DNA from: Buxus sempervirens
Lineage: Eukaryota; Streptophyta; Magnoliopsida; Buxales; Buxaceae
Assembly: GCA_947561395.2 (NCBI GenBank)
Contig: OX387194.1
Location: forward strand, 14,866,048 to 14,930,047
Length of the DNA stretch: 64,000 nucleotides
Direction of reading: 5' to 3'
The first letter of the stretch is position 1; the number at the start of each line of letters is the position of its first letter. Shown piece after piece: positions 1,903-36,765 of this stretch. A program made the position numbers and the translations under genes. A model generated the notes under the pieces. It searched no databases, had not been told where the DNA came from, and was given only the letters and a program-made list of their open reading frames with translations.

Positions 1903-2261
1903 TGATGCTGCTGGGGATGTTGTTTCTGTTGATGGTTCTGCTGGGTTGTTGCTGCTGCTTGCTGCTTGTTATTTTTTTTCTTCTCTCTATGTGTTGTGTA
2001 TTTGTTATGTTTCTGAAAGTTGGCTTGTGGAGGAGTTTTCTGTGGGTCTGTAAGGGAAGTTTTATGTTGGTTGGTTGGATGTGTATATATCTGTGTATAT
2101 ATCTGTTGGAACAATGTATATCCTTTTTGAATGAATGAAATTCTGGATTCTCCAAAATCATTGTGTCTCTCCTTATCAATGTGATTTTAAAATTCTTAAA
2201 TGGAAATCAATATTAACTGAGTTTGATATTAAACACTGTTTTAAGGTTGTTGTCAGGCGTT
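1903..2261 (+). other. 3' untranslated stretch of the left Copia element
   Basis: No credible ORF. It runs between the accessory ORF and the polypurine tract and is matched in order by 12114-12592 of the complete copy. An extra AAAGGGGGAG purine tract lies at about 1881-1890, next to the ORF end. Confidence 0.6.
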
Positions 2262-2276
2262 TGCCAAGGGGGAGAT
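2262..2276 (+). other. Polypurine tract of the left Copia element
   Basis: CCAAGGGGGAGAT directly precedes the LTR start TGTAAGTGTG at 2277; the same purine run precedes the 3' LTR of the complete copy. It is the expected primer for plus-strand DNA synthesis. Confidence 0.85.
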
Positions 2277-2928
2277 TGTAAGTGTGAAAACACACACTCC
2301 TTTTATGGCAAATTTTTGACAAATTATGTCTTCTAATAAATCTTCAAGATGTGCAGATTAAATAATGAAAATTCAGTGAATTTAGTAAAGAAGAAGAAGA
2401 CGATGCTGCCACACAGCTACCACGCCGCTGGTAGCTCAAGGAAATGAAAGATTTTCTAAATAGAGCATTTCTTGTAAAGGCACTTGCGAAGATCAACGCC
2501 GCTGCCACTCCGCTGGCAGCGCATAAGTGAATCAGTGCTTTGAAAGTAAGGCACGTGCACTAGCGTCGTAAGGCGACGCCAACACGCCGCTGGTAGCACA
2601 GAGCGAGACTGAAGATTATATGATCAGCCGTGCACATGCCGCATTCTCTCCCGCTAGCAGCTCGTTGGCAGCGTGTCCTTAACTGATTCAACTTGTTCTG
2701 CGCGGGACTTGAGTTCGCTTCCAGCCGTCTACCCCGATCGCTTCACGACGCCACCAGCGCTCGACGCGATCTAAGTTTTCTCCTTTAAATAGACGTGCTG
2801 TAATTTTTAGAATGGACTTTTCTCTTTGGATCATTTTGATTTCGGATCTTGAGGTGTTTGAGATTCGATCAAATCTTCTTTAGAGAGTCGGCGATCGAGT
2901 GAGGGGGAGATCTGAGATAGATCGCCTG

Positions 2929-3330
2929 GAATTGAAGGTCGTGGATTCTTCTTCAATTCGGAACTTCACCTGATCGTGTGATCACCTGGATTGGTGATCG
3001 GCTTTGGTTGATGCATAGGTGGATTCCTACTGCATTGGATCGTCTCAGTGGATTCTGAGGTGATTGTTGCGATCTGGATTGATCGTGTTCTGCAGCTTGT
3101 GGATTCAAGCTGTGTTGCAGTTCGTGGATTCGAACTGTGGATCACTGGTGAGTGATTGTTTGCGATCTGGATTGATCGTGTTCTGCAGCTTGTGGATTCA
3201 AGCTGTGTTGAAGTTCGTGGATTCGAACTGTGGATCACTGGTGAGTGATTGTTTGCGATCTAGATTGATCGTGTTCTGCAACTTGTGGATTCAAGCTGTG
3301 TTGCAGTTCGTGGATTCGAACTGTGGATTG
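2929..3330 (+). repeat. Array of short hairpins with constant TGGATT loop
   Basis: Each TGGATT is flanked by complementary arms, and the arms differ between units: GATCACC/GGTGATC (2980-2999), TAGG/CCTA (3016-3029), CTCAG/CTGAG (3044-3059), CGATC/GATCG (3070-3085), CAGCTTG/CAAGCTG (3093-3112) and CAGTTCG/CGAACTG (3118-3137), the last three repeated with the 93-bp unit. GAATTGAAG/CTTCAATTC (2929-2959) encloses another TGGATT. The array lies downstream of the TATA-like box, so in the LTR transcript. Confidence 0.85.
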
Positions 3331-3347
3331 CTGTTGAGTGAGTTCAA
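3069..3347 (+). repeat. 93-bp tandem repeat, three copies, in the Copia LTR
   Basis: GCGATCTGG/GCGATCTAG starts recur at 3069, 3162 and 3255, an exact 93-bp period. Each unit contains the CGATC, CAGCTTG and CAGTTCG hairpins. The other two Copia LTRs in the window have two units. Confidence 0.9.
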
Positions 3348-3556
3348 TTGTAAAGGTTAAGTGTGTGCTCCTTTGTAATTGTCTTTTCATTCAATAGTGG
3401 AATTTCGAAGGGTTAGTCGCCTCATATAGACTCGAGGTTTTTTCCTGGATCTGGATTCAGGTTTCCTCGTATAATTCTCTGTGTGTTTGTTTCCGCATTG
3501 TTAAATTCTTAATTGTTGTAGATCGTGGACCTATAGAGTAGTCCTCTATTCTTTCA

Positions 3557-4989
3557 TCTAGGTTGCATATAATCGCGACCGCGACCGCGACTCCTCCACT
3601 TCTCTTGTGCAAACCCTTGAGAAACCAGCTCTCGCTCTCTTCTCTGGTGACCGCTTCTCCCCTTCGGTTTTCGTTCCTCTTCTTCTCCGGCGACGGCAAA
3701 CCTCCTTCTGGCGACCTTGTTTTTCCAGCCAGATCGTTCTTGCTCGAAGTTCTACAACGCTCGGCGACGGCTTTTTCCTCCCACTTCTGCCATCCTTCGA
3801 CCACTATCTGAACTCTGTGCTCACACGATAGAGGAGCTTAGACAGTGATCAAGCTACCTCGATTGAAGTCCTGGTGAGACAAAGCTTCCATCTTTCTTGC
3901 AAAACCTTGTTTTCGACCGAAAAAAGTAGGTGGCCGAAACTTGGATTTCTCTTGTAATCCTTCAATCAGATAGTTGATAAATCGATTTCAGGATTGAATG
4001 ATCTTATTTTATGCACGACTTTGATTCCGTGATAAGATGATTTTGTGCTCTTGATTATTTGCTCCTTGGTTGGACAAAACTGCCGAATTCTGCATATGCT
4101 TATTTATCAGACTTTTTTTCTTTTGGTCATTAGTGGGTTTTCTGAACTTGAGTGTTGATAGTACTGCAATTCTTGCCTCTGTCTATATTGTTATCAACTG
4201 GGTTCTCCTTGTTCCCCCTTTACCCACAAAGTGTGCATGAACTCTCTGATAGAGTGATTTCAGAATGCATATTCTGGTGCTTTGTTATGGAATGTTTGGG
4301 TGCCTTGGCCTTTTGAATGCACCTTATGATGTGGTATCTGTTGACTGCTCATTTTCCATGCTCCTCTCAAGAGTTGCTCTACTCTATGTGTTGAATAAGA
4401 CATGCTGCCAACCACTCTAGCCATCAGTTCCATAAAACATTGTTGACCATCTTTCATGTTTTGTCAAAAGGGTTTTGTACCTGAAAAAAAATAGATTGGA
4501 TATTTAGGCATCATAAAAATCGAGGATTAAGCATAAATTTCATATAACAAGACTTTAATCCCTGATACATCTCCCTCTGCAATTCTAAGAATGAAACACT
4601 CTTAGGCAACGTGAGTGCTTGTCAGAATGAAAATTCTGAAAAGCTCTCTTCAAGAATTTCTTTTCTTTTTCTTTTTTTTTCTTTTTTTGTTTTTTGCAAT
4701 ATAAGAAGGATATATAGGAATTTTGTTTCCTTTATAGAATTCTTATATATAACAGGAATATCTAAATGAAGAAAATATTAAAGGCTTTTAAAACTTTGAA
4801 GAATAAGAATGTTAAATCCTGGTTCGGTCGGACACTTTTGAAGCGTTTCCTCCGATCTCCATTTCTTTTGCAAACAAAACAAATTTGATTAAACTAAAGA
4901 AAAGCAAAATTAACGGAAACATGAAAGCAAATATAATGACTTTAAATGCAAAAAACATAATGAATTTCTCCCTGCAATTGGTCTTGTAG
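3557..4989 (+). other. Presumed 5' UTR and leader intron of antisense gene 1
   Basis: No ORF I trust. 3557-3870 is a C/T-rich leader-like stretch, similar in character to 55070-55460 before the second copy. A candidate donor (GTGAGAC, about 3872) and the acceptor TCTTGTAG directly before the ATG at 4990 suggest one intron of about 1.1 kb. The second copy has the same arrangement (TTGCTTGTAG just before its ATG at 57104). A polypyrimidine/poly-T tract sits at 4655-4700. Confidence 0.45.
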
Positions 4990-11007: not shown

Positions 11008-11075
11008 GTTTGACTGCGTCAGAGTTGATTGGCTCAGGAAAGTCCTTCCCATCCATTTCTGATAAGATGAGAGCG
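11008..11075 (-). pseudogene. Tat-1 integrase, C-terminal tail left of the Copia insertion
   Basis: Read on the minus strand from 11075 the reading frame of the integrase fragment at 21143-22043 continues for about 20 codons and ends with TGA at 11008-11010. The join is exact once one copy of the 5-bp GAGCG duplication is removed, showing that the Copia element at 11076-21137 landed in the integrase coding sequence. Confidence 0.85.
11071..11075. other. Target-site duplication GAGCG (left)
   Basis: GAGCG at 11071-11075 and 21138-21142 flanks the complete Copia element, as expected for a 5-bp integrase staggered cut. Confidence 0.95.
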
Positions 11076-12097
11076 TGAAAGAGTAGAGGACTACTCTTAA
11101 GGTCCACGATCTATAACGATTCAGAATTTAACAATTGCGGAAACAGTACACAAAGAATTATACGAGGAAACCTGGATCCAGATCCAGGAAAAACCTCGAG
11201 TCTATATGAGGCGACTAACCCTTCAAAATCCACTATTGAATGAGAAGACAATTACAAAGGAGAACATACTTAACCTTTACAATTTGACTCACTCAACAGC
11301 AATCCACAGTTCGAATCCACGAACTGCTACACAGCTTGAATCCACAAGCTGCAGAACACGATCAGTCCAGATCGCAAACAATCACTCTCCAGTGATCCAC
11401 AGCTCGAATCCACGAACTGCTACACAGCTTGAATCCACAAGCTGCAGGACACGATCAATCCAGATCGCAGCAATCCTCTCAGAATCCACTGAGACGATCC
11501 AATGCAATAGGAATCCACCTATGCATCAATCAAGGTCGATCACCAGTCCAGGCGATCACACGATCAGATGAAGTTCTGAATTGAAGAAGAATCCACTGTC
11601 TTCAATTCCAGGCGATCTATCTCAGATCTCCCCCTCACTCAATCGCCGACTCTCTAAAGACGATTTGATCGAATCTCAAATCTCTCAAGATCCGAATTCA
11701 AAATGATCCAAAAAAAAAGTACTGATTAAAAATTACAACTCGTCTATTTAAAGAATAAAACACAAATCGCGTCGAGCGCTGGTAGCGTCGTGAAGCGATC
11801 GAAGTAGACGGCTGGTAGCGAACTCATGTCCCGCTCAGAGTGACTTGAATCTGTTAGACGCGCGCTGCTAGCGGGAGAGTACGCGGCAGGTGCACGATCC
11901 TTGCTTTTGACACACGAAATTCCTTATGCGCTGCCAGCGGGGTGGCAGCGGCGTGGTAGCAGTGTGGTGGCACCAACTCTTCTTCTTTACTGAATTTACT
12001 GAATTTTCATTGTTTAATCTGCACATCTTGAAGCTTTATTAGAAACCTAATTTGTCAATCATTTGCCATAACAGGAGTGTGAGTTTTCACACTTACA
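11076..12097 (-). repeat. 3' LTR of the complete Copia element
   Basis: 1022 bp, TGAAAGAG...ACTTACA on the + strand (TGTAAGTG...CTTTCA in element sense). TATA-like CTTTAAATAG (minus) near 11747-11756. Two copies of the 93-bp repeat. Hairpin array at 11307-11608. Confidence 0.95.
11307..11608 (-). repeat. Hairpin array with constant loop in the 3' LTR of the complete Copia
   Basis: Written on +, the loop reads AATCCA. Units include CAGTTCG/CGAACTG (11307-11326), CAGCTTG/CAAGCTG (11332-11351), CGATC/GATCG with loop AGTCCA, TCTCAG/CTGAGA, ATAGG/CCTAT, GATCACC/GGCGATC (11538-11557) and GAATTGAAG/CTTCAATTC (11578-11608). Relative to the left Copia LTR several stems differ by changes that keep pairing or leave G.U in the transcript. 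The 5' LTR has the same array at about 20348-20649. Confidence 0.85.
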
Positions 12098-12113
12098 ATC
12101 TCCCCCTTGGCAA
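12098..12113 (-). other. Polypurine tract of the complete Copia element
   Basis: CCAAGGGGGAGAT (minus strand) directly abuts the 3' LTR. Similar purine tracts recur at about 12368-12377 and 12602-12612; repeated tracts upstream of the 3' LTR are a reported Sirevirus trait. Confidence 0.85.
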
Positions 12114-12592
12114 ATGCCTGACAACAACCTTACATCAGATTTTAAAATCAACCTTAGTTAATGATGATATCCATTCAAGAAATTTAAAACTACACTGTTA
12201 ACCAGAGACACAGTGATTTGGATTAATCCAGAGTTTCATTCATTTACAACCAGATATACAGATAACAAAATCATTTACGTTGTTCAAGAAAGACAGACAG
12301 CAAGAAAGAAGGACAGACAGACATTTAAGAAAGAAAGACAGACATTAAGAAAGAAAGACAGACATTATCTCCCCCTTACTTATCATTCCCTTATAAAAAA
12401 AATTCAGGAGACAACACCCAGAACAGACCATAAAAAAAAACAACCATCATATCCACAGCAAGAATAACAGCACCAAACAACAATCAAACAACAAGATTCG
12501 AAACATCAGCAGCAGCAAGCAGCAGACAACAACCAGCAAGCATCAGCATCAGCACCAACCCAGCCAAACCATCAGCAGAACCAGAGACTGCA
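12114..12592 (-). other. 3' non-coding stretch of the complete Copia element
   Basis: No gene. Contains AAGAAAGACAGACA microrepeats at 12290-12365 and CAGCAGCA/CAACA low-complexity sequence at 12480-12590. Confidence 0.6.
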
Positions 12593-13912
12593 TCATCCAA
12601 ATTTCTCCCCCTTTCTGGATGGTGGTTTGGGTTCCCAAGACCTTGAGTAGTGCTTGTAGGCATCTTGAGATCTGGAGTGCAGCCAACAGAGCTTGTGATC
12701 CATCTCCAGCTGAGTCTTCCGAATGCATTCCAGAAAATGACCCGCTTCATTTTGCATACGTTGCTGAGCAGCAACGTCCCTTTGAACTTCTCCACAAGTG
12801 AAATCAACATCCTTCAGCAATTGCCCCAGCTTCTCTTGGGTTTCGGATTTGAACATGCTCATCATGAGCATGTGAGACCTAACCTCTGAAAAGAAAGCCT
12901 CCTGAGAAGCTTGCATCGAATTCAGTTTCTCTATGATGGCCACAGCATCAGGGCTGGACAGAGAGGACTGAGAAGAGGAGGGATCAGAGGACATTACCCG
13001 AAAAGGACTTGCTCGTTTACTGCGGGTCAGAGTGGATGAAGCAATGGGAGGACGGGGATGCATAATCAATTCAGTAGGATCAGGGAGTACCCCCTGATGA
13101 ACACACATGTACGAGATGAAAATTCCAAAAGGAAGAGCAGCAGTCTTGGATTTTAAATTCCGAGACTGAAGAATCTGATGAAAGATAATAGAAGGAATAC
13201 AAATACTTTCTCTGTTCCAGATGGCATGAAGAAGTCTTGCCCTATGGTGAGAGATCTCGGAGTGATGATCAGAAGGAACAAGAGAAGCACAGACAAACAA
13301 GTTCAAGATCCGGAGAAGATCTTGAAGAGAGCCATGAGGCAAATAGTTGGGCTTGTTCTTAATGGAAGAAGGAGCACCCTCAACTATTAGAGACGGAATA
13401 ATGGACTCCATAGGAGGATCAAAATGAGACTCAAGAAAGTTAAAGGAGGGAGAGTCAACAAGAGGTAGTTCATGCAGAGAGGAAATAAGCTCTTTCGAGA
13501 AGTCGAAAGAAATTCCCCTGACATAGGCTTTGACAGAGCCTTGATTTGCAAGATGAAGTTGATGAAGATTAGAGTAAAATTCACGGACCAGGTTTGGATA
13601 AGCAAAACCCCCAAGCACTGCAAATTTTTTCCAACCATTGTCCGAAAACAATGAGTAGAAAGGGGATTCAGAAAAAGAGTCAAGCTTGATGGCCCTTTCC
13701 AGAAGAAGAGGCCTGTGCTTGAAGAAGGTATTAAAATCAGATAAACCATTCCCCACAAATGGTTCAGAAGAATGAGAAGGGGAAGGAGGTCTCACTGGAG
13801 GAGACGGAACAACAGGAGAAGACCTCACATGAGGAGACTTCACAGGAGGAGACCTCACAGGAGGAGACGATGTTGAAGGAGAATCCGTTCTCGACTTTCT
13901 CTTGAGAGGCAT
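12593..13912 (-). CDS. Copia accessory ORF: putative plant transposon protein domain plus coiled coil
   Basis: About 439 codons from MPLKRKSR; the frame is open 14 codons further up, to 13954, but the shorter start is the one conserved with the copy at 614. N-terminus: repeats of SPPVRS/SPPVKS and basic residues. Middle (about 60-310): the domain described for the copy at 614, intact here (YPNLVREFYSNL, SIIFHQIL, LPFGIFISYMCVHQGV). C-terminal 100 residues: helical, heptad-like (MFKSETQEKLGQLL, VAAQQRMQNEAGHFLE), predicted coiled coil. No signal peptide or membrane span, so not a classical envelope. It lies 1.2 kb downstream of gag-pol on the same strand with its own TATA-like box and donor site. 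The domain's function is unknown; capture from a DNA transposon or host gene is inferred. Confidence 0.8.
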   Translation of the reverse strand: MPLKRKSRTDSPSTSSPPVRSPPVKSPHVRSSPVVPSPPVRPPSPSHSSEPFVGNGLSDFNTFFKHRPLLLERAIKLDSFSESPFYSLFSDNGWKKFAVLGGFAYPNLVREFYSNLHQLHLANQGSVKAYVRGISFDFSKELISSLHELPLVDSPSFNFLESHFDPPMESIIPSLIVEGAPSSIKNKPNYLPHGSLQDLLRILNLFVCASLVPSDHHSEISHHRARLLHAIWNRESICIPSIIFHQILQSRNLKSKTAALPFGIFISYMCVHQGVLPDPTELIMHPRPPIASSTLTRSKRASPFRVMSSDPSSSQSSLSSPDAVAIIEKLNSMQASQEAFFSEVRSHMLMMSMFKSETQEKLGQLLKDVDFTCGEVQRDVAAQQRMQNEAGHFLECIRKTQLEMDHKLCWLHSRSQDAYKHYSRSWEPKPPSRKGEKFG

Positions 13913-13954
13913 GGTAAAAGAAATGGAAGAGAAAGAGAAAACAGACAACACCAA

Positions 13955-15091
13955 CCAACAAAACGAGAAAGCCCTAAGTGCTGAAAAAACTACTAAACCC
14001 TAGCTTCGAATAAAGAGAGAAAACTACAGAACTAGGAAGCAGAAAAATGGAGAAGCAGGACGAAGATGGTAAAAAAAATTTTACCTGAACAGTAGACAGG
14101 AAGGAAGAAGATGACAGCGACAGCAGCACCGGGACACGACGCGAGAAGCGAGGGAAAAGCGAAGAGGGTGAAAAGAACAGGGGTAAAAAGAATAGCTCAC
14201 TTTCACCTATATATAGACAAACTCAAATACACTGCCAGCGGGCAACTGGCGGCGTAGAAGGTGCACATGCACAAACAACAAAAACTACAGATTCAACGCA
14301 TAAACTTATAAAAGAGGTTTGATCAATTTTTCAAGACATCCTCCTACTTCTAAACACGAAGCTGAGATTTTAGCTTAACCCAAAAATCATCCAGATAATC
14401 AACTTATTCAATCTAAGAAGTACTTAGCACAAAACTGATTTTGAAGTACCTATCAGAGTTAATTCAGATGTGATATATTTCATATTAAAGAGCAAAATTT
14501 CATTTATGGTTTCTCATACTATAAATTTTCTTCAAGATATTAAGAACATATGCATACTAATGAGTCAATGCTTGTGAGAAATGAGCAACATTTTTGACTT
14601 TTACACTTCATACATATAGAAGACTATTTCAGTGTAAACAATCTTGAAAAGTATAGACATATCCCAACTTCATTTTGGTGGCTTTCGCACATCTGAGATA
14701 GGTAGCCTTTTCTGATCTCTTTTTCTTTTTAAAGAAGGCATTGACCCTTAAAAAACCTGAGTTTACAGTTCATTCCAAGAATATACCTTCTTTATCTTTT
14801 TCTTTTTGAGATTTACAGTGGCTTTCACTCTAATCTCTATGGCAGCCATTTCCAAAACTTTTCTTTTCACAAAGGTGATAGCCTATAGATCCCAAGCTTT
14901 ACCACACAATAAGCTTCAATACGTATAGGTGTTTCAGACAAAGTTGCTGGTTAGAAATAAGACATTTCTGTCAATATGCATACACTCAATCTTCCTGAAA
15001 CCAGATCTTAGTAATAAGAACACACAAATTCATTTTGAACAGATATGTGAGACATTTTACATCAAAATTAACTCAAAACAGAACCTGATTT
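13955..15091 (-). promoter_or_regulatory. Spacer between gag-pol and accessory ORF with internal promoter
   Basis: TATATATAG (minus, 14208-14216), then a GTAAAATTTTTTT donor near 14085, are conserved with 307 and 438 of the left copy. The remainder (14220-15091) is non-coding with no feature I recognise. Confidence 0.5.
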
Positions 15092-18000
15092 TCAGTTTTG
15101 AGAGCATACTCCTAGGGATTTCCTAAGAGTTTCAAATCTGTTTTGATCTAAAGGTTTGGTAAAAATGTCAGCCAACTGTTTTTCAGTAGATATGTAATCA
15201 ATCACAACAGTTTTGTCTTCAATCAACTCTCTTATAAAGTGATGCCTGATATCTATATGTTTGGTCCTTGAGTGTTGAACAGGATTCTTAGAGATATTTA
15301 TGGCACTTTGATTATCACAGAAGAGAATCATTTGATCTTGATCTATCCCATAATCTGATAACATTTGTTTCATCCAAATAAGTTGAGTACAACTGCTTCC
15401 TGCAGCAATAAACTCAGCTTCAGCAGTACTCAGAGAAACACAGTTTTGTTTCTTGCTTAACCAGGCAATAAGATTATTTCCCATGTAAAAGCAACCACCA
15501 GAGGTGCTTTTTCTGTCATCCATACACCCAGCCCAATCAGCATCAGTGTATCCAGTTAGATGTGGATTTGTCTCTTTGGAAAACCAGATTCCCAGATCAA
15601 TAGTCCCATTAACATATTTTATAATCCTTTTGACAGCATTCAGATGGGATTCTTTAGGATTAGCCTGATATCTAGCACATACTCCAACACTAAAGCTTAT
15701 ATCAGGTCTACTTGCTGTTAAGTATAGTAGACTCCCAATCATTCCCCTGTACAGGGTAGGGTCTACAACCTTTCCAGATTCATCTTTTCCAAGTCTTAAA
15801 CTAGTACTCATAGGAGTCCTAGCATGTTTAGCATGAGTTAAGCTGAATCTCTTAACAAGATTTCTTGAATATTTTGCTTGAGAGAAAAAAATTCCTTGTT
15901 GAGATTGATAAATCTGAAGACCTAAGAAAAAATTCAGTTCACCCATCATACTCATTTCAAATTCACTTTTCATTAAATCAGCAAAGAGGTGAGCATGATT
16001 TTCAGAAGTGGACCCAAACACAATGTCATCAACATAGATTTGAGCAATCAAAATATGTTTGGACTCTCTTTGAATAAAGAGAGTTTTATCTACATTTCCT
16101 CTCATAAAACCAGATTCAAGTAAAAAGAAAGTAAGTCTCTCATACCAAGCTCTAGGAGCTTGTTTGAGTCCATACAAAGCTTTGTTCAGTTTATAGACAT
16201 ATTTAGGATGATTTGTGTCCTCAAATCCTTTAGGTTGCTCTACATAGACCTCTTCATTCAGATATCCATTCAAAAATGCACTCTTAACATCCATTTGAAA
16301 CAGTTTAAACTTCAAGTAACATGCAATAGACAGCATTAATCTGATTGATTCTAACCTAGCTACAGGAGCAAAGGTTTCATCAAAATCTATTCCTTCTACT
16401 TGAGTATACCCCTGAGCAACAAGCCTAGCCTTATTTCTGGTTACTATCCCATTCTCATCAGATTTGTTTTTAAAAATCCACTTGGTTCCTATCACATTCA
16501 GATCAGAGGGTCTTTCAACCAATTCCCAAACATTATTTCTAGTAAATTGATTCAGTTCTTCATGCATAGCATTCAACCAAGAATCATCTAACAATGCATC
16601 TTTATAAGATTTTGGCTCAAATTGAGAGAGATAAGAGGAAAATCTTACCTCATTATGTACCTGATGTCTTGTTCTGACACCATCTGAAATATTTCCAACA
16701 ATTTGTTCAGTTGGGTGGTCTTTGAGAGTTCTAGCCAGAGGAACCACTTCAATGCTTGAGGAAGCATCTTTGATTTCATCCTCTTCATCTACAGCCTGCA
16801 TAAATTCACTGTCATTACTTTCATCATCTATTAGCACATTAATAGATTCCATTACAACTGATTTCTGCAAATTGAAAACTCTGTAAGCTCTACTAGAAGA
16901 AGAATATCCTAGAAAAATTCCTTCATCACTTCTAGAATCAAATTTTCCTAGATTTTCTCTGTCCCTTAAGATATAGCATTTACTTCCAAATACTCTGAAA
17001 TATTTCAAATTTGGCTGTTTTCCTTTCCAAAGTTCATAGGGAGTTTGTTTCCATCCAGATCTGATATAAACTCTGTTACATATGTAACAGGCAGTATTTA
17101 TAGCTTCAGCCCAGAATTTTGTTGAAATTTTCTTGGCTATCATCATGGTTCTAGCCATTTCTTGTAGAACTCTGTTCTTCCTCTCCACAACTCCATTTTG
17201 TTGTGGGGTCTTAGGAGCAGAAAATTCATGTTTGATTCCATGTTCTTCACAGAAATTGGAAAACATTTGATTCTCAAATTCTGTCCCATGGTCAGATCTG
17301 ATTCTTACAATCTTTCCTATTTGCAAGTTCTTTTCAACTTGAATTTGGCAGCACAGATGTTTAAAACAGTTGAAACATTCAGATTTTTCTCTTAGAAAGT
17401 CTATCCAAGTATATCTGCTGTAGTCATCTACTGCAACAAATATATATTTCTTTCCTCCCAGACTTTCAGTCTTTGTAGGTTCCATTAAATCCATATGAAT
17501 CAGTTCTAATGGTCTTGATGTTCCTACAATGTTGGTTTTCTTATGTGTGGCTTTGATTTGCTTTCCTTGGTTGCAAGGACCACACATTCCTTCCTTTTTA
17601 TTTTTCCCAAACTTGGGAATTCCTCTTACTAGCTCAGACTTAGAGATTTTTGACAAATCTCTATAGTTAATGTGGCCAAGTCTTCTATGCCACAAATCAA
17701 TTTCGTTGCCTATGGAGGATTTTAAAGAGCACTCACTGTTTCCAATAATCCCATAGCAATTATCACTTGTTCTTTCACCTACAAGAACAGTCCTACCAGA
17801 TTTATCCAGTATTTTGCACTCTTTTCTGGTAAAATTAACAAATAATCTGGAATCACATAATTGGCTAATACTGATAAGATTTGCCTTCAAACCAGATACA
17901 AATAGAACATTTTTTAAGCAGACTCCATTTGGACCTGTAACAGTTCCTTTACCTTTAACTTGGGAAGTGTTTCCATCACCAAATGTAACACTTCCACCAA

Positions 18001-20056
18001 AATATTCTTCAAAGGTACTGAACATAGCCTTACTACCACACATGTGTCTTGAACACCCACTGTCCAAGTACCACATGTTGACATCATGAGCTTTTAAAGC
18101 TACATGAACCACATTAGCAACCAATGAATCTTTTCTTACCCAAATCTGTTTCTCAGAAGTCTTCTGAACAGTACCTTCTTCAACTACTTGAGTTTTTGAA
18201 GGAAGCTTCTTAGAAAGATTTGAGACTTCCTGATTTAATGTTTCAGTCAATTTTAACAGAGAGTCAAATCTGTTGTATAAGTCCAGGGACTGACTTTGAT
18301 TTACCTTTCTCTTATTTTCAAAATATCCATCAGGGAAACCATACAGTTCATAACACTTTGGTCTTATATGACCTTTTTTATTGCAGTGATGGCATACAGG
18401 TATAAACCTATTTTCAGAAAAATCAACATTTCTAGACTTGCCAGCATTTCTAAACTGTACAGATTTAGATTTCTCAGAAGTTGAAGATTTACCTGTTGAT
18501 CTTACTTCTCCAGCAGAGATTTTCTGTGAAGATTCCTTGTTTTGATTACTTACTCTCATTCTTTTTCCAGCTGAATTTGAGCTTTCAGGAACTTCCTTTG
18601 AAGTTGATTCCTCAGTAATTTGAAGATTTTCTGCAGAAGAATTTGAAGCATTAGATTTACTTGAATTTGAAACTTTCTCAAATTCAATTACTTTACCTTG
18701 TAGTTCAGAAATCTGAGCTTCCTTTTCTTTTATTTTTTCAGTTTTTTCAGTTAGAGAAGTTACCAGAGAATTTTCTTTAGCATGTTTTTCAAGTAACTTC
18801 TGGTTTATTGAATCTATTTCTGCAAGAGCTTTCTTTCTCTCTGTTTCTGATTCCTTCAATTTTTTACTCAGTTTCTTGATTTTTTTCTGAGCTCTATTGA
18901 ATTCCTTATAGAGCTGATTGTATGCTTCTTGTAGTTCTTCTTCATCATCTGATAAAGTCTCTTTGTTATCTTCTGCAATTCCAGAGATTGAACTACCAGA
19001 GGAGGATGAGTAAAAAGAATTGAAAGCAGTAAAATTAGCAGACATATCCTCATCAGATTGTGAAGAATTATCAGTGTTACTGTCATCCCAAGTAACCTGA
19101 TAATTAGTCTTTTTCTTTTTATCTTTTGAGGGACAATCAGAGGCAACATGTCCAAATCCTCTACATTTGTAACATTGAACCTCATCATTCTGAGAAGATT
19201 TCTTCTCCTTTCTTGGATCAGACATTTTCTTATCAGATCTCCTATTAGATCTGTCCATGGATGATGAAGAATTGAATTGTTTCTTTTTAAACATTTTCTT
19301 AAACTTTTTGGCTAAGAGAACAAGTTCATCCATATCAACATCAGAATTATCTGATTCTTCAGTATTTACAGATTTTACAGAATTTAGAGCTATTCCTTTA
19401 TTTCTTTTTGGAATATTCAGATCTAGCTCATAAGTCTGTAAAGATCCTACCAGATCTTCAATTCTCATGTTATCTACATCTTTTGCCTCTTGTATTGCAG
19501 TTACTTTAGGTCTGAATCTTTCAGGCAAAGATCTTAAGATTTTTCTAATCACCTTTGATGTAGTAATCTTTTCTCCAAGATTAAAACTAGAATTTACAAT
19601 ATCTGAGAGTTTAGCATAAAACTCATCAAAAGACTCATCATCTTTCATATACAGAGTTTCGAAAGATGTAGTAAGTCTCTGAAGTCTGGACAACTTGACA
19701 GCTGAGGTTCCTTCATGAGTGACCTCTAGGATGTCCCAAGCTTCCTTAGCGACTTCACATGAGGAAATTCTCCTGAATTCCTCAACACTAACAGCACAAA
19801 ATAAGGCATTCATTGCCTTGTTATTCCATCCACATTGATCAGATTCAGTTTTAGTCCACTGATCATGAGGTTTGGAGATCACAACACCTACATCTGTTGT
19901 GATCACAGGTGGATGATAACCATTACAAACTGAGAGCCAGACACGCTCATCGATTGACTTCAGGTAAGCTCTCATTCTAGCTTTCCAGTAAGAATAATTG
20001 TTACCTTCAAATAAAGGAGGTCTAGAGGCAGATCCTCCTTCTTTTCCAAAATCCAT
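15092..20056 (-). CDS. Copia Gag-Pol polyprotein, intact
   Basis: 1654 residues with no internal stop. Gag: UBN2-like region 10-230, CCHC knuckle C295-C308, a long Lys/Glu coiled coil about 370-465, a second CCHC knuckle C555-C568. Protease: D665-S-G. Integrase: pre-integrase zinc region LWHRRLGH about 788 and CGPC about 825, catalytic D856, D922, E958. RT: D1256 in [12 protein letters not shown] and YVDD 1341-1344. RNase H: D1505, E1548, D1581. The order PR-IN-RT-RH defines Ty1/Copia. Two knuckles separated by a coiled coil make Gag unusually long. All catalytic residues expected for the family are present, so it may be active. Start taken as MDFGKEGG, 43 bp downstream of the PBS. Confidence 0.95.
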
Positions 20057-20099
20057 GCTATAGATCTAGATCACACTAAGTATAGCAATTCAAAGTGAA

Positions 20100-20114
20100 T
20101 TGGCTCTGATACCA
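20100..20114 (-). other. Primer binding site, initiator Met tRNA type
   Basis: TGGTATCAGAGCCAA on the minus strand, two bases after the 5' LTR end. This is the well-known plant Copia PBS complementary to the 3' end of initiator Met tRNA. Confidence 0.95.
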
Positions 20115-20116
20115 CT

Positions 20117-21137
20117 TGAAAGAGTAGAGGACTACTCTTAAGGTCCACGATCTATAACGATTCAGAATTTAACAATTGCGGAAACAGTACACAAAGAATT
20201 ATACGAGGAAACCTGGATCCAGATCCAGGAAAAACCTCGAGTCTATATGAGGCGACTAACCCTTCAAAATCCACTATTGAATGAGAAGACAATTACAAAG
20301 GAGAACATACTTAACCTTTACAATTTGACTCACTCAACAGCAATCCACAGTTCGAATCCACGAACTGCTACACAGCTTGAATCCACAAGCTGCAGAACAC
20401 GATCAGTCCAGATCGCAAACAATCACTCTCCAGTGATCCACAGCTCGAATCCACGAACTGCTACACAGCTTGAATCCACAAGCTGTAGGACACGATCAAT
20501 CCAGATCGCAGCAATCCTCTCAGAATCCACTGAGACGATCCAATGCAATAGGAATCCACCTATGCATCAATCAAGGTCGATCACCAGTCCAGGCGATCAC
20601 ACGATCAGATGAAGTTCTGAATTGAAGAAGAATCCACTGTCTTCAATTCCAGGCGATCTATCTCAGATCTCCCCCTCACTCAATCGCCGACTCTCTAAAG
20701 ACGATTTGATCGAATCTCAAATCTCTCAAGATCCGAATTCAAAATGATCCAAAAAAAATTACTGATTAAAAATTACAACTCGTCTATTTAAAGAATAAAA
20801 CACAAATCGCGTCGAGCGCTGGTAGCGTCGTGAAGCGATCGAAGTAGACGGCTGGTAGCGAACTCATGTCCCGCTCAGAGTGAGTTGAATCTGTTAGACG
20901 CGCGCTGCTAGCGGGAGAGTACGCGGCAGGTGCACGATCCTTGCTTTTGACACACGAAATTCCTTATGCGCTGCCAGCGGGGTGGCAGCGGCGTGGTAGC
21001 AGTGTGGTGGCACCAACTCTTCTTCTTTACTGAATTTACTGAATTTTCATTGTTTAATCTGCACATCTTGAAGCTTTATTAGAAACCTAATTTGTCAATC
21101 ATTTGCCATAACAGGAGTGTGAGTTTTCACACTTACA
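20117..21137 (-). repeat. 5' LTR of the complete Copia element
   Basis: 1021 bp; nearly identical to 11076-12097. Differences seen by eye: one A fewer and G/T versus C/T in the A-run region near 20750, C/T near 20486, and G/C near 20884. Followed by GAGCG (21138-21142). Confidence 0.95.
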
Positions 21138-22043
21138 GAGCGCCTCCTAATAGGACCTTCTTCACCATATAAGGTCCTTCCCAATTTGGCTTAAACTTTC
21201 CACGAGGGTCCTCCAGAAATGGTAATATTTTCTTTAAAACCAAATTACCCACTTGGAAAACTCTGGGCTTCACCTTCTTATTATAGGCCCTGGCCATTCT
21301 CTTCTGATACAATTGGTCGTGACAAAGCGCATTCAGACGCTTTTCCTTTATTAGGTTGAGTTGATCATATCTAGACTGAACCCATTCAGCTTCTTCGAGT
21401 TCTATTTCCATAAGCACTCTCAGTGACGGTATTTCCACTTCAACAGGTAAGACTGCCTCCATTCCATAAACCAAGGAATACGGCGTTGCCCCAGTAGAAG
21501 TTCGGATTGAGGTTCTGTAAGCATGTAGAGCAAATGATAGCATTTCATGCCAATCTATATAACTCACTACCATTTTCTGAATTATCTTCTCTATGTTCTT
21601 ATTTGCCGCCTCTACTGCCCCATTCATCTTTGGCCTGTATGGAGCGAACTTGTGATGAGTTATCTGAAACTGCTCACACATCTTCTTCATATCCTTGTTC
21701 TTAATATTTGAAGCATGGTCTGATACTATGGCATTTGGCAATCCATAGAGACAAATTATGTTGTGCTTCAAAAACTTAAGAACATGGTTTCCTGTGATAT
21801 TTGCATATGAAGCGACTTCAACCCACTTCGTGAAATAATTGATCACCACGAAGATGAACCGGTGTCCATTTAATGCTTTTGGAGAAATCATCCCAATGAC
21901 ATCAATACCCCACGTAAAAAATGGCTATGGCAAGGTCATGCTATGTAGCTCACTAGGTGGTGCATGTTTATTATCAACATATATTTGGCACAAATGGCAC
22001 CTCTTGACATGCACGCAACAATCATGCTCCATTGTAGACCAAT
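21138..22043 (-). pseudogene. Tat-1 integrase core and C-terminal region
   Basis: Minus-strand fragment between two insertions. It starts within the zinc-binding region (EHDCCVHVKRCHLC), then the core GIDVIGMI (first Asp; the ATG of the longest open piece is at 21891), VSDHAS (second Asp) and MNGAVEAANKN (catalytic Glu), then GATPYSLVYGMEAVLPVEVE and the C-terminal GKFKPNWEGPYMV block typical of Gypsy integrases. The catalytic triad is intact. Reading continues at 11075 once the Copia element is removed. Confidence 0.85.
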
Positions 22044-22568
22044 TGTAAACACCTCATTTTTGCGCTCCCGGAAAAACCGGAAATGCAAAACTCGGCTAAA
22101 AAGTCAAACCCTAAGGGGTGAAAAATTGACTTTTTGATCCAGTGATAATTGGTCACCTTGCTTTATCTCAATGGATAGATAATTCCGACACGAGTCCAAC
22201 GCAACTGAGTTTGCTGGAATCGGAGTCCGGATGAAGGTTTTGCAGGCCGGTCAAACTTGAGGGAGAGCCGAAAGTTGACTTTTCCTCGAACCCCGTGCCA
22301 ACGCAACTGAGTTTGCTCAAATCGGAGTTCGGATGAAGGAGATATGAGCTGTCGAAGTTTCCGAGCAGCAAAACCGGAAACTGCACACGTGGCGTAGGAA
22401 CTGCACACGTGGCAGCCAACGCAGCAAAATATCTCAGAGACTAAATCTTAAATATCTAAAAATCTCAGGGATTAAACCAAAATTCGCAGGGACCAATCCG
22501 TAATTGCTCAAAAGTGTCGAATCGGTCGAATCGGTCAAGTCGAGGGGCAAATCCGTAATTTTTTGATT

Positions 22569-22841
22569 TGTATCCGGTCAAATATATCGGATACACATAG
22601 GTTTGTGTATAAACGACATCAAATGCCGGATACAAAGAGATATTTCAGCGAGATTCGCGCCGGACGCCCGACAAATTCGCGGCGGCATTTAATTTTCGGA
22701 TGATTATGTTTTGTATCCGGCATTGAATGCCGAATACAAAGAGGTACTTGTGTAACCGGCCATGGTGGTCGGCTATGAAGAGAGCCTAGTGTATCCGGCC
22801 TGAGTTGCCGGATACATTAAGTTGGCCTATAAAAGGCCAAC
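22569..22841 (+). repeat. Hairpin array E of LTR A1 (GTATCCGGC arms) ending on the TATA box
   Basis: TGTATCCGGT/ATCGGATACA (22569-22595), TTTGTATCCGGC/GCCGAATACAAA (22710-22740, one mismatch) and TGTATCCGGC/GCCGGATACA (22790-22816, perfect) all have 7-nt loops. The last hairpin, GTTGGCC-TATAAAA-GGCCAAC (22821-22841), is 7-7-7 with the TATA box as loop. Another perfect copy, GTGTATCCGGC/GCCGGATACAC, lies at 24452-24480. Confidence 0.85.
22828..22834 (+). promoter_or_regulatory. TATA box of LTR A1, inside a hairpin loop
   Basis: TATAAAA flanked by the perfect 7-bp inverted repeat GTTGGCC/GGCCAAC. Confidence 0.7.
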
Positions 22842-25530
22842 AGCAACCCATTTCCGGGGGTTGGCTTTCTTTTGCTGTTTTTTAACTATCTTCCCCCACT
22901 CTTTCTCACCCGAATCCCTCCCTCTTAAAGCCCTTCTTGCCTCCATAACCTCCTCACTTGATCCCAAGACTACCCAACCCTTGCCTTCTTCTTCTTCTTC
23001 ACTTTCTTAACAAGGAGGGGCTGGTTGCTGCTGAGGTTAAGCTTGAACACCAAGGGGCTCTCCAGCTGCTGTCAAGCAAAAGAAGGAGCCTCCACCTTGC
23101 ACAAGGGCATAGGAACCCTCAGGTATTGCTTCTCACTAACTTTTACTTTAAATACATGAAAATGGAGGTTTTCTAAGTAAGTTGATGAGCATGTTTTCTT
23201 CCTTGTTGCAAATCTGTTAAAGATGCTTGCACGGCATGAGTTTACCCTTCATTTCATCACATGGGAGCCTCTAAAGGTAAGAGAGTCCCCATGTTTAGTT
23301 CTATAAGAGAGCGGGAGGAAGTCCACCCCATTTGGAGTCTCTTTGACCCACTGTTTTTTTTCTTTTCTTTTGCTTTCTTTTTGGTGGTTTCTAGCAGTAT
23401 TTTTTGTCTATTAAAAGAGAGCATGTTCTCCCTAAATCTCCCTCCAATGTACCCCAAAGTAACCCCCCATTTCCCTTCTTAATCCTTCTTCTTTCTTCTC
23501 ATTTCGTGGGTATCATTTTACTGCTGGCCGTACCCCCTTGGGTTGCTGTTCTGGACCATGGTTGCAGCATGCGTGCCTCTTACATGCCTCTGTTTTGGTG
23601 TGAACATGTGTGTTAATTTGTAGTTATGTTCAGATGTGAGCTAGGGTCTCTATTCATGCATGCCATTACTGTCACCTAGTGTCTTTTCTTCCTTAGGATG
23701 CTGTTTCTAGGAGCCAATGCATGCTCTCCTTTTATCACCAGCTGTTTGTATATGCTCATGCAAGACCTTTATTCCCTGGGATTATTGTAATGCTATGATT
23801 AAGTGACAAACATGACCCCCCACCCCTCTCTCCACTTGCTGTTTTGCATGTTGAAAGCATGAATCTCTTCCCTTTTTTTTGTTGAGTGACAATTTGCTGA
23901 TTGCTGTATTTTTAGTATATGGTTAGCCATTGTCATGCTCTCCCCATTATGACGCAAGTGAGTTGCTGCCGGGGACAGCAGCAAACCTCCACTAAGTTGC
24001 TGCTGTCCCAGCAGTCTTAAGCTTAAGACTGGGCCCAACTCTTCAACCCTTGCGTGCACGTTGCCCTAGCTCCAATATCCATGTGCTGATCAACCCTTTT
24101 GCATGCCCAAAGCCCATCCGAAATCCCATTGTTAGCTGCTGTTTCTCTTTCCACAGCCGGTTAGTTGGCTTCGATTTGTTTAAGCACGGAATGCATGAGT
24201 GTTTGGCTTTGATTGTTGGTTGACCTATGACATGAAATCACGAAAATTGGGGTGTCAAGCCCCCACCTTGTTGCTGTAATTGTCCGAAAAGAAGTAAGAG
24301 GGGCAGCAAGCCCCGTGCCTTCTCCTCTCGCCTTGTTGGAAAATCCAAAAGAGAAGCCAAATGAATCTTCTCCCCTGAACCTGAACCAGTGTGGGCCCAC
24401 ACAGGTAGTAGAAGGCCCTAGGAAGCCCCTGGAAACCACCCCAATGGCTATGTGTATCCGGCAACTAAGGCCGGATACACGACAAAAATGCAGTTTCTAT
24501 GTTTTTTGCTGATCCTTGTTGAATTTTGGGATGATTCTAACCAAATCAGGTGATCCAGTAGGGTTTCCGGGCCACCTGGAAACCCAACTTGGGACATGGA
24601 CCGCAGGTCCAACTCGGAATACCCATGGGCCTTCCAACGGGGCCCACCAAGCCCGATAAATTCCAAAGCATGCAAATAAGTAAGATTAAACAAAGTGAAC
24701 TAATTGAACCGGGTGGGCCAAACCCAATGCGGCCCATCCGAACCTTGATGTATGGAATTGGTGTGTTTAAATGCCTGGTTTGGCCGAGACCTAGGGAAGG
24801 GGCCTATCGGGCCCGCCAAAGCCCATTAACCGAACCAAGTGAAGGGCTCAAGCCTTAACTTCATGGAATTTGGGCTTTCAAGCCCAAAACTGGACTACGG
24901 GCCCCAAGCCCAATGTCCAAAAGACTTTGGCAAATATAAATAAGATAAATTGAAAATACTTTGGCATCCACTATGGGGGCCCACTCAGGGGCCCGCAAAT
25001 GAATGCAGACCCACTTATTGCATGAAAATCACATAAGTCTCCAACCTAAACTAACTAAGTAAAATCAATTCACTCCCACCTAAGTCCATAGGGCCTCCTA
25101 GGTTAGACAGAGGCCCACCAGGGGCACATGGGCTTACCCAAGCCTGCCAAGGACAACGTGGACCTTCCAACGGGGCCCACCCAATCAGACTCAGACAACT
25201 TAAGTAAAACAAGATAAAATCAATTAAAGGGACCCACACCACTCAGGTGGTCCCGCCAGACTTAACCAAGTTGCATATCGGATTAGGAATCAGGTGAGAA
25301 CCAAAGCAAGCTGACTCAAACCAGGGAACCCACGGGACCCGTCATCCGACGGGGTGGACTGGGGTGTCTACGGACTTCCCCAGGCCGCAACCGAGACCTG
25401 TCTCAGAATCTCAAGCCGCAGACCAAAGCCCAATAGACAAGATTAGGCACCCAAGTGTCCGCCTGCACCCCATCAGGCGGTGGCGACTCTGAACTTTCCC
25501 GTGCCGCGTTTCCGACGCGCACACACCAAT

Positions 25531-25678
25531 AATATCCCAGTCGCAGTATTTTCCTTGCGAGCATGTGTCCATTCATATGTGGCTCACAAACTCCTCCATG
25601 CACTGTTTCTATCAATCTTTCTGCTTCAACCTTGGTGACACATCTAAGTAGAACATCATTGTAGGATCTCTTGTATAA
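25531..25678 (-). pseudogene. Tat-1 integrase, N-terminal zinc-binding part
   Basis: The minus-strand reading includes the blocks HGGVCEPHMNGHMLARKILRL and GYYW, the HHCC-type N-terminus that precedes Gypsy integrase cores. It is cut after GYYW by LTR A1 and resumes at 22043. Confidence 0.8.
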
Positions 25679-26926
25679 CTACCCACTGCTTAGAAGGAAC
25701 TGCCCTGCTAGCCTCTGTATCGTTCTTTTTTCAGTAGAAGTAGCACCTTCTGGGAAACCCCGATTATTCATGAAATTCCTGATATCTTGAAACCACGGTA
25801 TTTCTACTTCTTGCGCTCCTTCTAGAACAAGACAGTAAGCTGGCTCATCTCTGACTTCAATTTCGAGTGGTTGGATGTCTACCCCTTCTGGAATGCTAAC
25901 CATTGAAGCCAATGTCGCCAAGGCATCGGCAAATTGATTCTTAGATCTTGGCATATAGCTAAAAGAAATTTGAGTAAATTTGGTACTTATTTCTTCCAAA
26001 TACTGGTGATACGAGATCAACTTGTGATCTTGGGTTTTCCATTCACCAGTTGTTTGGAAGATGATAAGACTCGAATCCCCGTATACGTCAAGTTCTTGAA
26101 CATCATGATCTATAGCAGCTTGTAATCCAATTATACACGCTTCATACTCTGCGATGTTGTTTGTGCACTGAAACCTCAACTTTACTGCGATCGGGGTATG
26201 CGAACCATCCGGCTTCACTAAAACTGCGCCGATTCCATTTCCATTCATATTTCCAGCCCCATCAAAGAACATCTGCCAGGAGTCTTCACTTTCTTCTTCT
26301 TCAGCAAATAAGATAGCCTCATCAGGGAAATTTGTCTTAAAAGGCTGATAATCTGGTAACGGATGCTCAGCTAGGTGGTTAGCGATTGCCTGACCTTTGA
26401 TTGCTTTTTGAGTGACATAGGTTAGGTCGAATTCTGAAAGCAAAAGCTGCCATCTCGCCATTCTACCAGTTAAGGCTAGCTTCTCAAACAAGTACTTCAG
26501 TGGATCCATCTTTGAAATCAACAATGTCGAATAACTTAGAAAATAGTGTCTAAGCCTCTACGTTGCCCAGACCAAAGCACAACAAGTTTTTTCAAAGGCG
26601 AATATCTTGTCTCATAATCTGTGAACTTCTTGCTCAAATAGTAGATAGCCTTTTCTTTTCTGCCTGTTTCATCATGCTGCCCCAATACACATCCCATTGA
26701 CGTTTCTAAAACTGATAGATACAGAATCAATGGTTTTCCTGGAGTTGGTGGTACTAGAACAGGTGGATTTAACAGATAATCCTTTATCTTGTCGAATGCT
26801 TGCTGACAATCCTCATTCCATATAGTTGGGTTGTTATTCCTTAGAAGCTTAAAGATCGGTTCGCAAATTGCAGTGAGCTGCGCTATGAACTGGCTAATGT
26901 ACTGAATTCTTCCAAGAAAACCCCTA
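25679..26926 (-). pseudogene. Tat-1 RNase H and second (archaeal-type) RNase H
   Basis: 26730-26536 reads as the ordinary Gypsy RNase H/connection (GRKEKAIYYLSKKFTDYETRYS). From 26524 the second domain follows: FFDGAGNMNGNGIGAVLV (Asp), CTNNIAEYEACIIGLQAA (Glu), YGDSSLII (Asp) and NQFADALATLASM (Asp), all four catalytic acidic residues visible. Tandem RNase H domains, the second of archaeal type, are a hallmark of the plant Tat lineage. Stops separate this part from RT (near 26926) and divide the first RNase H (near 26536), so the polyprotein cannot be made from this copy. Confidence 0.85.
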
Positions 26927-26928
26927 AC

Positions 26929-28173
26929 TTATTTTTCTGTTTTAGGAGGTGGCATGTCAATGATTGCCTTTGCTTTAGACGGGTCTATCTCAATCCCTCT
27001 TTTGCTTACAATGAATCCCAATAATTTCCCTGATGTGTCTCCAAAAACACATTTTGCTGGGTTAAGCCTTAAACTGTATTTCCTTAAACGGTCAAATAAC
27101 TTCTTTAGATTGATCAAGTGGTCATCTTCTTCACAAGACTTGACGATCATGTCATCCACAGAAACCTCCATCTCTTTGTCGATCATGTCGTGAAAAACGT
27201 CCGTCATGGCTCGCTGATATGTTGCCCCGGCATTCTTCAGTCCAAATGGCATGACTGTGTAGTGAAAGGTTCCCCAAGGCGTGATAAAAGCAATTTTCTC
27301 TTGATCTTCCTTTGCCATCTTGATTTGGTTATACCCGGAAAAGCCGTCCATAAATGAGAACAAGCTGTGCACTGCAGTATTATCAACCAAGATATCGATA
27401 TGTGGCAAGGGAAAGTCGTCTTTCGGGCTCGCTTTGTTCAAGTCTCTGTAATCTACACGCATCCTGACTTTTCCATCCTTCTTTTGAACTGGCACTATAT
27501 TAGCTAACCAATCAGGGTATGTGGAAACCGCCAAAAATCCAGTTTGAAACTGTTTAACCACTTCATCCTTGACTTTCAAAGTCCATTCAGGCTTCAACCT
27601 TCTCAAATTCTGCTTAATAGGCTTTACTCCTGGCTGGATTGGCAGCCTGTGTACAACCATGTCTGTATCCAACCCTAGCATATCTCGATAAGACCATGCG
27701 AACACGTCCTTGTAATCGGCCAAGAATTGGGACATTTCCTTCTGCTGCATATCAGACAAGCATGCACCAATCTTTACAATTTTTGGGTCCTCTTCTATCC
27801 CAAGGTTTATGGAAATGGTTTTTTCAATATTAGGTTGAATACCCTTTTCGTGACGTTCCAATTGATATGATATTTCTCTTGGAAGGTCATCTTCTTCAGC
27901 CTCGGTCTCCTCTTCGATCCCCATTAGGTCGAAGTCGAGCTCGAGGTCGAAGTCGTATTCAACTTGCTCTAATTCAGTTTGCATATATGATTCATAAGCA
28001 GATTGGACCATTTTGAAAGATTTAGGTTTTCTAGAAAAAGTTGAAAAATCTTTTTGGGTTTTTTGAGAACCTTCCAAAGAAGCTTTTCCTGAAGATGAAG
28101 GTTCATTAAAACCTTCAAGAAAAGGGCAATCTACTAATGGAGTTTTTTTTTGGAGGCCGCAGCTGATTGCCAA
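26929..28173 (-). pseudogene. Tat-1 reverse transcriptase
   Basis: Blocks in order: WSYRDMLGLDTDMVVHRLPI, IVPVQKKDGKVRMRVDYRDL, FPLPHIDILVD, FSFMDGFSGYNQIKM (catalytic Asp), MPFGLKNAGATYQRAM, EVSVDDMIVKS and LRLNPAKCVFG. The YxDD box reads SVDD, with Ser in place of the usual Tyr. The reading stops at 26929 just after PPPKTEK where RT homologues continue. The N-terminal 130 residues are an acidic linker. Confidence 0.9.
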
Positions 28174-36412: not shown

Positions 36413-36765
36413 TTACGCAGGCTTTCAAGGGCCTATGAATTTCTAAATTAAGGCTTTAGAAGGCCTATGAAATTTTTGAAAAAAATCTGGAATTTCAGGC
36501 TTCCAGGGTCCTATGAGTGTCTAAATCAAGGCTTTAGAAGGCCTATGAAATTTTTGAGAAAAATCTGGAATTTCAGGCTTCCAGGGTCCTATGAATGTCT
36601 AAATTAAGGCTTTAGAAGGCCTATGAAATTTTTGAGAAAAATCTAGAATTTCAGGCTTCCAAGGTCCTATGAGTGTCTAAATTAAGGCTTTAGAAGGCCT
36701 ATGGAATTTTTGAGAAAAATCTGGAATTTCAAGCTTCCAAGGTCCTATGAGTGGATTTTCTGAAA
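36413..36765 (-). repeat. 78-bp tandem repeat, about 4.5 copies
   Basis: AATTTCAGGCTTCCAGGG begins at 36491, 36569, 36647 and (as AATTTCAAGC) 36725, exactly 78 bp apart, with a partial unit before. Each contains AAGGCTTTAGAAGGCCTATG. Confidence 0.9.

Follow-up and report, generated by a model that had tools for sequence, protein, structure and literature searches.

Sirevirus copies and the hairpin array at the locus

The window, by which we mean the whole analysed stretch of 64,000 nucleotides of Buxus sempervirens contig OX387194.1, contains the 3' LTR of one Sirevirus copy (LTR A) and a full, younger copy with LTRs B and C (Table 1). LTR A has TG...CA ends and is immediately preceded by the PPT AGGGGGAGAT. 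The LTRs of the full copy are 99.6% identical, so its insertion is young, and it is flanked by the 5-bp target duplication GAGCG (11071-11075 and 21138-21142). The published definition of the Sirevirus junction between 5' LTR and PBS is CA followed by A(T/G)TGG and TATCAGAGC, and the full element reads TCAAGTGGTATCAGAGC at 20114 on the minus strand. Inspection by eye found AAGGGGGAGAT, which we take to be the Sirevirus PPT octamer, beside the TG of the 3' LTR at the AT-TG attachment site, one more AAGGGGGAGAT upstream, and an inverted repeat around the terminal PPT, with TTGTCAGGCATTTGCCA before the PPT and TGGCAAATGATTGACAA within the LTR. The frame at the position of the optional envelope-like gene matches Pfam PF20167, which is presumably the Sirevirus envelope-like family; the Pfam name of this entry, Transposase_32, is at odds with the place of the frame in a Sirevirus. 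In these three respects, the last two judged by eye, the elements of the window fit the Sirevirus description in the literature. Separate pol frames which look by eye to be of Gypsy type adjoin the insertion (21133-29542, minus strand), and other tandem-repeat arrays lie at 36418-36753, 51576-51844 and 53020-53540, with shifts of about 78, 31 and 147 bp, respectively.

Table 1. Coordinates of the Sirevirus features and of the hairpins of LTR A in the window
Feature	Position	Strand	Remarks
3' LTR (LTR A)	2277-3556	+	Sirevirus copy extending beyond the left end of the window; LTRs B and C match it
TATA-like box TTTAAATAGA in LTR A	2784-2793	+	from sequence
First hairpin	2929-2959	+	10-pair stem, 11-nt loop including TGGATT; from fold and sequence
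H1 GATCACC[TGGATT]GGTGATC	2980-2999	+	
H2 TAGG[TGGATT]CCTA	3016-3029	+	next pair G-C, A-T or A.C depending on the copy
H3 CTCAG[TGGATT]CTGAG	3038-3065	+	core 3044-3059; G.U pairs lengthen the stem to 11 pairs
H4 CGATC[TGGATT]GATCG	3070-3085	+	copies 3163-3178 and 3256-3271 (loop TAGATT, 3261-3266)
H5 CAGCTTG[TGGATT]CAAGCTG	3093-3112	+	copies 3186-3205 and 3279-3298 (one mismatch)
H6 CAGTTCG[TGGATT]CGAACTG	3118-3137	+	copies 3212-3229 and 3304-3323
GATCACT[GGTG]AGTGATT hairpin	3140-3157	+	loop other than TGGATT; copy 3233-3250
Full Sirevirus, younger copy	11076-21137	-	both LTRs carry the hairpin array
3' LTR (B)	11076-12097	-	array at about 11298-11609
Envelope-position frame	12593-13999	-	Pfam PF20167, E 1.1e-26
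gag-pol frame	15092-20065	-	two CCHC zinc knuckles
PBS TGGTATCAGAGC	starts 20114	-	
5' LTR (C)	20117-21137	-	array at about 20339-20650

The array of LTR A (2929-3323) starts about 135 nt past the TATA-like box, downstream of it as an earlier note on this DNA had said. The six stems which that note had named (GATCACC, TAGG, CTCAG, CGATC, CAGCTTG and CAGTTCG) were all located in the sequence; these unrelated stems and their tandem copies make up 11 hairpins with 4 to 7 exact Watson-Crick pairs around the loop TGGATT, which sit about 190 to 530 nt downstream of the box and in which G.U pairing on the sense strand often lengthens the stem. A 93-bp unit is present three times, the last ending at 3323. 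Among hexaloops closed by at least four exact pairs, TGGATT is the commonest in the window, with 24 cases on both strands in comparison to 7 for the runner-up, and 23 of these cases fall within the three LTRs of one family, the remaining one being at 12219. The plus-oriented copies of this family that were compared have a TATA-like box at the corresponding place, L028 excepted. Directly before the array, at 2902-2909 inside LTR A, lies the PPT-like octamer AGGGGGAG, the same word as the terminal PPT of the elements.

Loop words in three LTR families

All comparisons were made within one genome. The pattern of three TGGATT words spaced 15 to 35 nt apart gave 6395 matches in the 677-Mb genome in comparison to 1385 for the reversed control. 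A sampling that was blind to the hairpins used the Sirevirus junction TTTCANNTGGTATCAGAGC, which had 502 matches and none in the control; 100 matches were listed, and 60 of these were hand-picked and read. They comprised 36 LTRs of the TGGATT family (family 0), 22 of a second family (family 1) and two single loci, L076 and L096. A second junction pattern, VCAAKTGGTATCAGAGC, gave 135 matches, from which 20 extra loci were taken. The last 750 nt before the PBS were then scanned for any word that formed the loop on three or more different stems, and the scores were compared with 40 dinucleotide shuffles per locus, which amounted to 3200 pooled shuffles for the 80 loci, with a maximum of 4.8.

The results showed that all 36 family 0 LTRs scored between 3.5 and 13.8, with TGGATT or GTGGATTC as the word, and that each exceeded its own 40 shuffles, while 33 also exceeded all 3200 pooled shuffles. 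The frequency of hairpins sharing a loop was not matched by shuffled LTRs, an outcome which the earlier note had said would refute its reading. From 750 to 1500 nt before the PBS no score was above 3 in any of the 80 loci, and L076 and L096 gave no score in the scan.

Family 1 is without TGGATT arrays and has the same layout with the loop GAGTTC, in hairpins such as CGTGG[GAGTTC]CTACG, CTTCA[GAGTTC]TGAAG, ATCTGAG[GAGTTC]CTCAGAT and CAGGC[GAGTTC]GTTTG, among others. In the loop scan 18 of its 22 loci scored, the top word being AGTT in 17 and GAGTTC in one, and 17 of the 22 were above all 3200 shuffles; the other four loci gave no score. The alignment of this family included 20 of the 22 loci, L064 and L116 being left out as a divergent branch, and 118 of 120 loops in the aligned loci were exactly GAGTTC.

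A third family was recognised from L122, one of the loci of the second junction pattern, whose score of 5.2 was greater than all 3200 shuffles. Its hairpins are ATTCTTC[GGGA]GAAGAAT, GTCTTC[GGGA]GAAGAC, TTGAA[GGGAG]TTCAA, CGAGG[GGGAG]CCTTG and TAGATTGAA[GGAG]TTCAATCTA, and two more copies of the family have ATTGAA[GGGAG]TTCAAT and TAGATTGAA[GGGAG]TTCAATCTA. The family was matched at 85-100% identity in 40 scored places (161 candidates), and four copies were read, among them L127, a sister of L122 in which the hairpins are only partly kept and which gave no score in the loop scan. The L122 RT is 72.6% identical to that of the window over 292 aa. The word GGGAG resembles the purine-rich PPT word of the elements, so a link to the PPT is possible for this family. 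In the other 18 loci of the second pattern, some of which may not be Sireviruses, weak scores were obtained for L123 (CATG, 3.3) and L138 (TTAG, 2.9), which exceeded their own 40 shuffles and stayed below the pooled maximum, and the remaining 16 gave no score at all. A search of IMG/VR for relatives by a piece of the RT and by the hairpin pattern found none.

In three Sirevirus-type families, rows of hairpins follow a TATA-like box, their stems differing from hairpin to hairpin while the loop word is near-constant within a family and different between families. As a separate observation made by eye, an outer stem in U5, CGAGG...CCTCG or CGGAGGG...CCCTTCG, is present at 3433-3469 of the window and in the last 250 nt of L059 and L116, and it encloses an extra hairpin which holds the loop word of the respective family.

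Variation of the stems and predicted folding

To describe variation in family 0, 87 arrays with both flanks were compared, of which 77 were distinct; the loci came from DNA match, pattern and PBS junction, and some of the 87 are the two LTRs of one element. Array length varies among the copies. H1 was found in 76, H2 in all 77 and H3 in 67 of the 77 arrays, and H4, H5 and H6 were found 180, 196 and 195 times, respectively, hairpins within one LTR being non-independent because of tandem duplication. Several pairs differ among copies. Pair 5 of H2 is G-C in 34, A-T in 28 and A.C in 15 arrays; pair 5 of H5 is G-C in 136, G.T in 43, A-T in 8, A.C in 6 and others in 3 copies; and pair 4 of H6 is T-A in 123 and T.G in 72. 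The outer pairs of H5 (8 and 9) and H6 (8 to 10) are G.U or U.G in 153 to 192 of about 196 copies. H4 as read in eight LTRs includes TCACGATC/GATCGTGA in two, TTACGATC/GATCGTGA with T.G in three and TTACGATC/GATCGTAA in one, which is a stepwise series of C-G, T.G and T-A.

In family 1, for which the structure of a single member, L107, served as reference, the aligned pairs were Watson-Crick in 460 cases, G.U in 141, A.C in 3 and other in 36, and shifting the structure by 1 to 3 columns lowered the Watson-Crick count to 94-169. Compensatory types were observed at three stem pairs, for example at the end of CTTCA/TGAAG, with C-G in 5 and A-T in 15 copies, two of the three sharing one 5:15 split. 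The covariation check which the earlier note had called for was run in part, and it detected compensatory pairs in two families rather than none.

The direction of change on the two kinds of branches was further counted by Fitch parsimony on trees from the short array flanks, a rough instrument. For a palindrome read as DNA, G.T and A.C changes are equal mismatches, and mutations after insertion should be symmetric as well; internal branches represent sequence that was still replicating and terminal branches represent mutations after insertion, so symmetry is expected on the latter. For family 0 (first copies, all pairs), Watson-Crick pairs changed to G.U 27 times and to A.C 25 times on terminal branches, in comparison to 10 and 0 times on internal branches (p=0.004). 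The internal ratio was 9:0 under the alternative tie rule (p=0.0078). For the last copies it was 9:0 (p=0.0096) or, with other tie-breaking, 8:1 (p=0.076), and for inner pairs only it was 6:0 in first copies (p=0.028) and 3:0 in last copies (p=0.25). Family 1 gave 4:0 on internal and 9:3 on terminal branches. When first copies of family 0 were pooled with family 1, the ratio was 14:0 internal in comparison to 36:28 terminal (p=0.0014), and for inner pairs 10:0 in comparison to 34:28 (p=0.005). The direction was identical in all versions of the count, and internal changes from Watson-Crick to A.C were absent in all but one. An earlier count of 17:0 internal and 40:39 terminal had mixed first and last copies and so doubled related hairpins, and the smaller counts are preferred. 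Some internal changes did break a pair: in family 0, with first and last copies taken together, 8 changes turned G.U pairs and 1 a Watson-Crick pair into non-pairs, and in family 1 a single change did so to a Watson-Crick pair. Stem changes common to several copies thus mostly preserve pairing.

Constancy was also compared by column. In family 0 a shared variant was present in 5 of 24 loop columns, 8 of 56 stem columns and 29 of 99 other columns, so that loop columns were not clearly more constant than stem columns, the loop variants being chiefly T/C at position 5 and A/G at position 4 of H3. In family 1 the corresponding values were 0 of 36, 16 of 64 and 36 of 123, the stem columns being about as variable as the other columns.

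The predicted sense fold of the array was 5.65 s.d. below shuffles for LTR A, with -0.4 and -2.1 for the upstream and downstream flanks, and 6.35 s.d. below for LTR B, with -0.5 and -4.3. The antisense array gave z-scores of -14.3 for LTR A and -7.4 for LTR B, equal to or stronger than the sense strand; the RNAfold z-score was accordingly rejected as evidence on the strand, since low folds on both strands show the palindromes and do not choose between strands. In the predicted folds 11 of 13 TGGATT words in LTR A and 8 of 9 in LTR B are at least 85% unpaired. Rfam covariance models gave no match over 2200-3700, the best being SNORD112, whose 22.6 bits fall short of the gathering score of 58. 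Kissing of the loops with the remainder of the element was also considered and found unsupported, as the 8-kb interior contains 3 AATCCA words in comparison to 2.2 expected.

Known systems and the proposed function of the array

The closest described features are the repeated motif (RM) boxes of Sireviruses, which are arrays of palindromes with at least 8 copies per element upstream of the TATA box (Bousios et al. 2010, PMC2829016). Each element repeats one palindrome, whose core is CGG-CCG except in Tnd-1. The present arrays resemble them as short-palindrome arrays inside Sirevirus LTRs, and differ in having variable stems around a constant 6-nt centre downstream of a TATA-like box; the six stems are different, and CGG-CCG is in none of them. 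The palindromes CACCGGACNNNGTCCGGTG of maize Sirevirus LTRs are described in PMC10760457, which cites Bousios et al. 2016, as predicted hairpins tied to small RNAs and cis-regulation; unlike the present array, they repeat one stem and lie upstream of the TATA box. By eye, repeated CCGCTGGCAGCG-like palindromes are seen upstream of the TATA-like box in the U3 of LTR A (2401-2670), which are perhaps the RM boxes of family 0, and CGTTCGAACG-like palindromes are seen in the U3 of family 1. With RM-type palindromes in U3 here too, one LTR can hold both features. PMC3601003, on LTR structure, mentions PPT and U5 stem-loops. The statement of the earlier note that no such Sirevirus feature had been described needs to be narrowed, in that palindrome arrays in Sirevirus LTRs are known (PMC2829016). 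A literature search whose coverage took in few subscription journals and some sources only in part returned no account of a Sirevirus leader in which hairpins keep one loop on varying stems.

The data point to a selected RNA of the sense strand rather than to DNA half-sites, given that the array lies past the TATA-like box, that internal changes from Watson-Crick go to G.U and that compensatory pairs are present in two families. The earlier note had left folded RNA and paired half-sites as alternatives, and asymmetric constant loops on variable stems are the opposite of a half-site. A constant loop, stems that are free to vary as long as they pair, many copies and a position after the promoter are what is expected of an RNA read through its loops.

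We therefore tentatively propose, at slightly under an even balance of belief, that the array is a sense-strand leader element in R/U5 which serves as a multivalent packaging signal read by the element's own Gag. The genomic RNA would start with a leader in which some six to twelve short hairpins show one G-bearing hexaloop (UGGAYU in family 0), the stem of each being free to vary while paired, and many copies of the loop would be read in parallel by a trans factor. This factor would most likely be Gag, acting through its two CCHC zinc knuckles, and the array might act in dimerisation too. When a lineage changes its recognition, the loop word would switch together across all hairpins. An exposed, conserved loop on pairing stems, as looked for in a packaging signal, was found, more weakly in family 0, and both Gags inspected, one from the window element and one from an element of family 1, have two CCHC knuckles. 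Nucleocapsid proteins of retroviruses bind exposed guanines; zinc knuckles are common to many Gags and are no proof of specificity. Since the loop word is shared throughout a family and changes from one family to another, its partner may well evolve together with the element, and Gag is the natural candidate for such a partner.

Several viral signals offer parallels. HIV-1 SL3 is a packaging stem-loop with a GGAG loop in the 5' leader. Like signals of this type, the arrays would present exposed G-bearing loops in a putative leader, and the third family even has GGGAG and GGAG; unlike retroviral signals, which consist of a few different hairpins, one loop is repeated many times here. Coronavirus SL5 carries the hexaloop UUYCGU on two or three hairpins of the 5' leader and is discussed as a packaging signal. 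It shares with the present arrays the same hexaloop on different stems, but it belongs to an RNA virus, has few hairpins and is unrelated in sequence. The packaging stem-loops of satellite tobacco necrosis virus share a loop motif and lie at several places of the genome, and the comparison is with a small RNA virus whose signals are spread over its genome. Short degenerate stem-loops of this virus are proposed as packaging signals in PMC6475782. Among plant copia elements, BARE has proposed dimerisation and packaging signals, and the part of the text on them that was available gives no account of a constant-loop array (PMC3735527).

It is possible, though we think it rather unlikely, that the reader of the selected leader structure is instead the ribosome or some protein of the host, with a role in translation start, stability, nuclear export or the choice between being translated and being packaged. 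All of the structural evidence is equally compatible with such a reader, and BARE is reported to have separate RNA pools for translation and packaging (PMC3735527); a loop word specific to a lineage would nevertheless be easier to obtain with a partner that coevolves with the element than with a conserved host protein. We find it improbable that the palindromes act as DNA, as cis-regulatory sites for transcription factors similar to what was proposed for Sirevirus repeated motifs. Folding on both strands agrees with this, as does the published view that the palindromic repeats of Sirevirus LTRs are probably regulatory boxes (PMC2829016), but the centre is constant and asymmetric while the stems vary, the array lies past the TATA-like box, and the shared changes from Watson-Crick are to G.U and not A.C, a difference to which DNA is blind. 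Neutral growth of a minisatellite, in which slippage duplicates a hairpin that has no function, would account for the three 93-bp units of LTR A and the varying array lengths and is very improbable, since duplication copies stems and does not yield six different self-complementary stems or changes that preserve pairs, and it leaves the second and third families with their other loops unexplained. Stems of 4 to 11 pairs are short for Dicer. We give just as little credence to a role of the hairpins as template or decoy for small RNAs of the host, even with maize Sirevirus LTR palindromes described as small-RNA hotspots (Bousios et al. 2016, as reported in PMC10760457 and PMC5311732), for a constant loop would be unnecessary and pairing kept by selection would be odd for a liability.

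Returning to packaging by Gag, a more speculative extension, which we consider unlikely on present grounds although worth stating, is that Sireviruses have a lineage-specific loop code (UGGAYU, GAGUUC or GGGAG), in which all hairpins of a lineage carry the same word and change it together. By this code Gag would select its own genome for packing and reject the genomes of rival Sireviruses present in the cell. Little is known of the way in which plant LTR retrotransposons select their own RNA for packaging, a remark that PMC3735527 makes about those other than BARE, and about 21% of the maize genome consists of Sireviruses (PMC3599292). The constant-loop array would offer a concrete candidate packaging signal and allow one to ask whether co-resident lineages keep from packing one another. 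Were the reader something other than Gag, the array would still be a leader RNA structure, undescribed in the literature found, in very abundant plant mobile elements.
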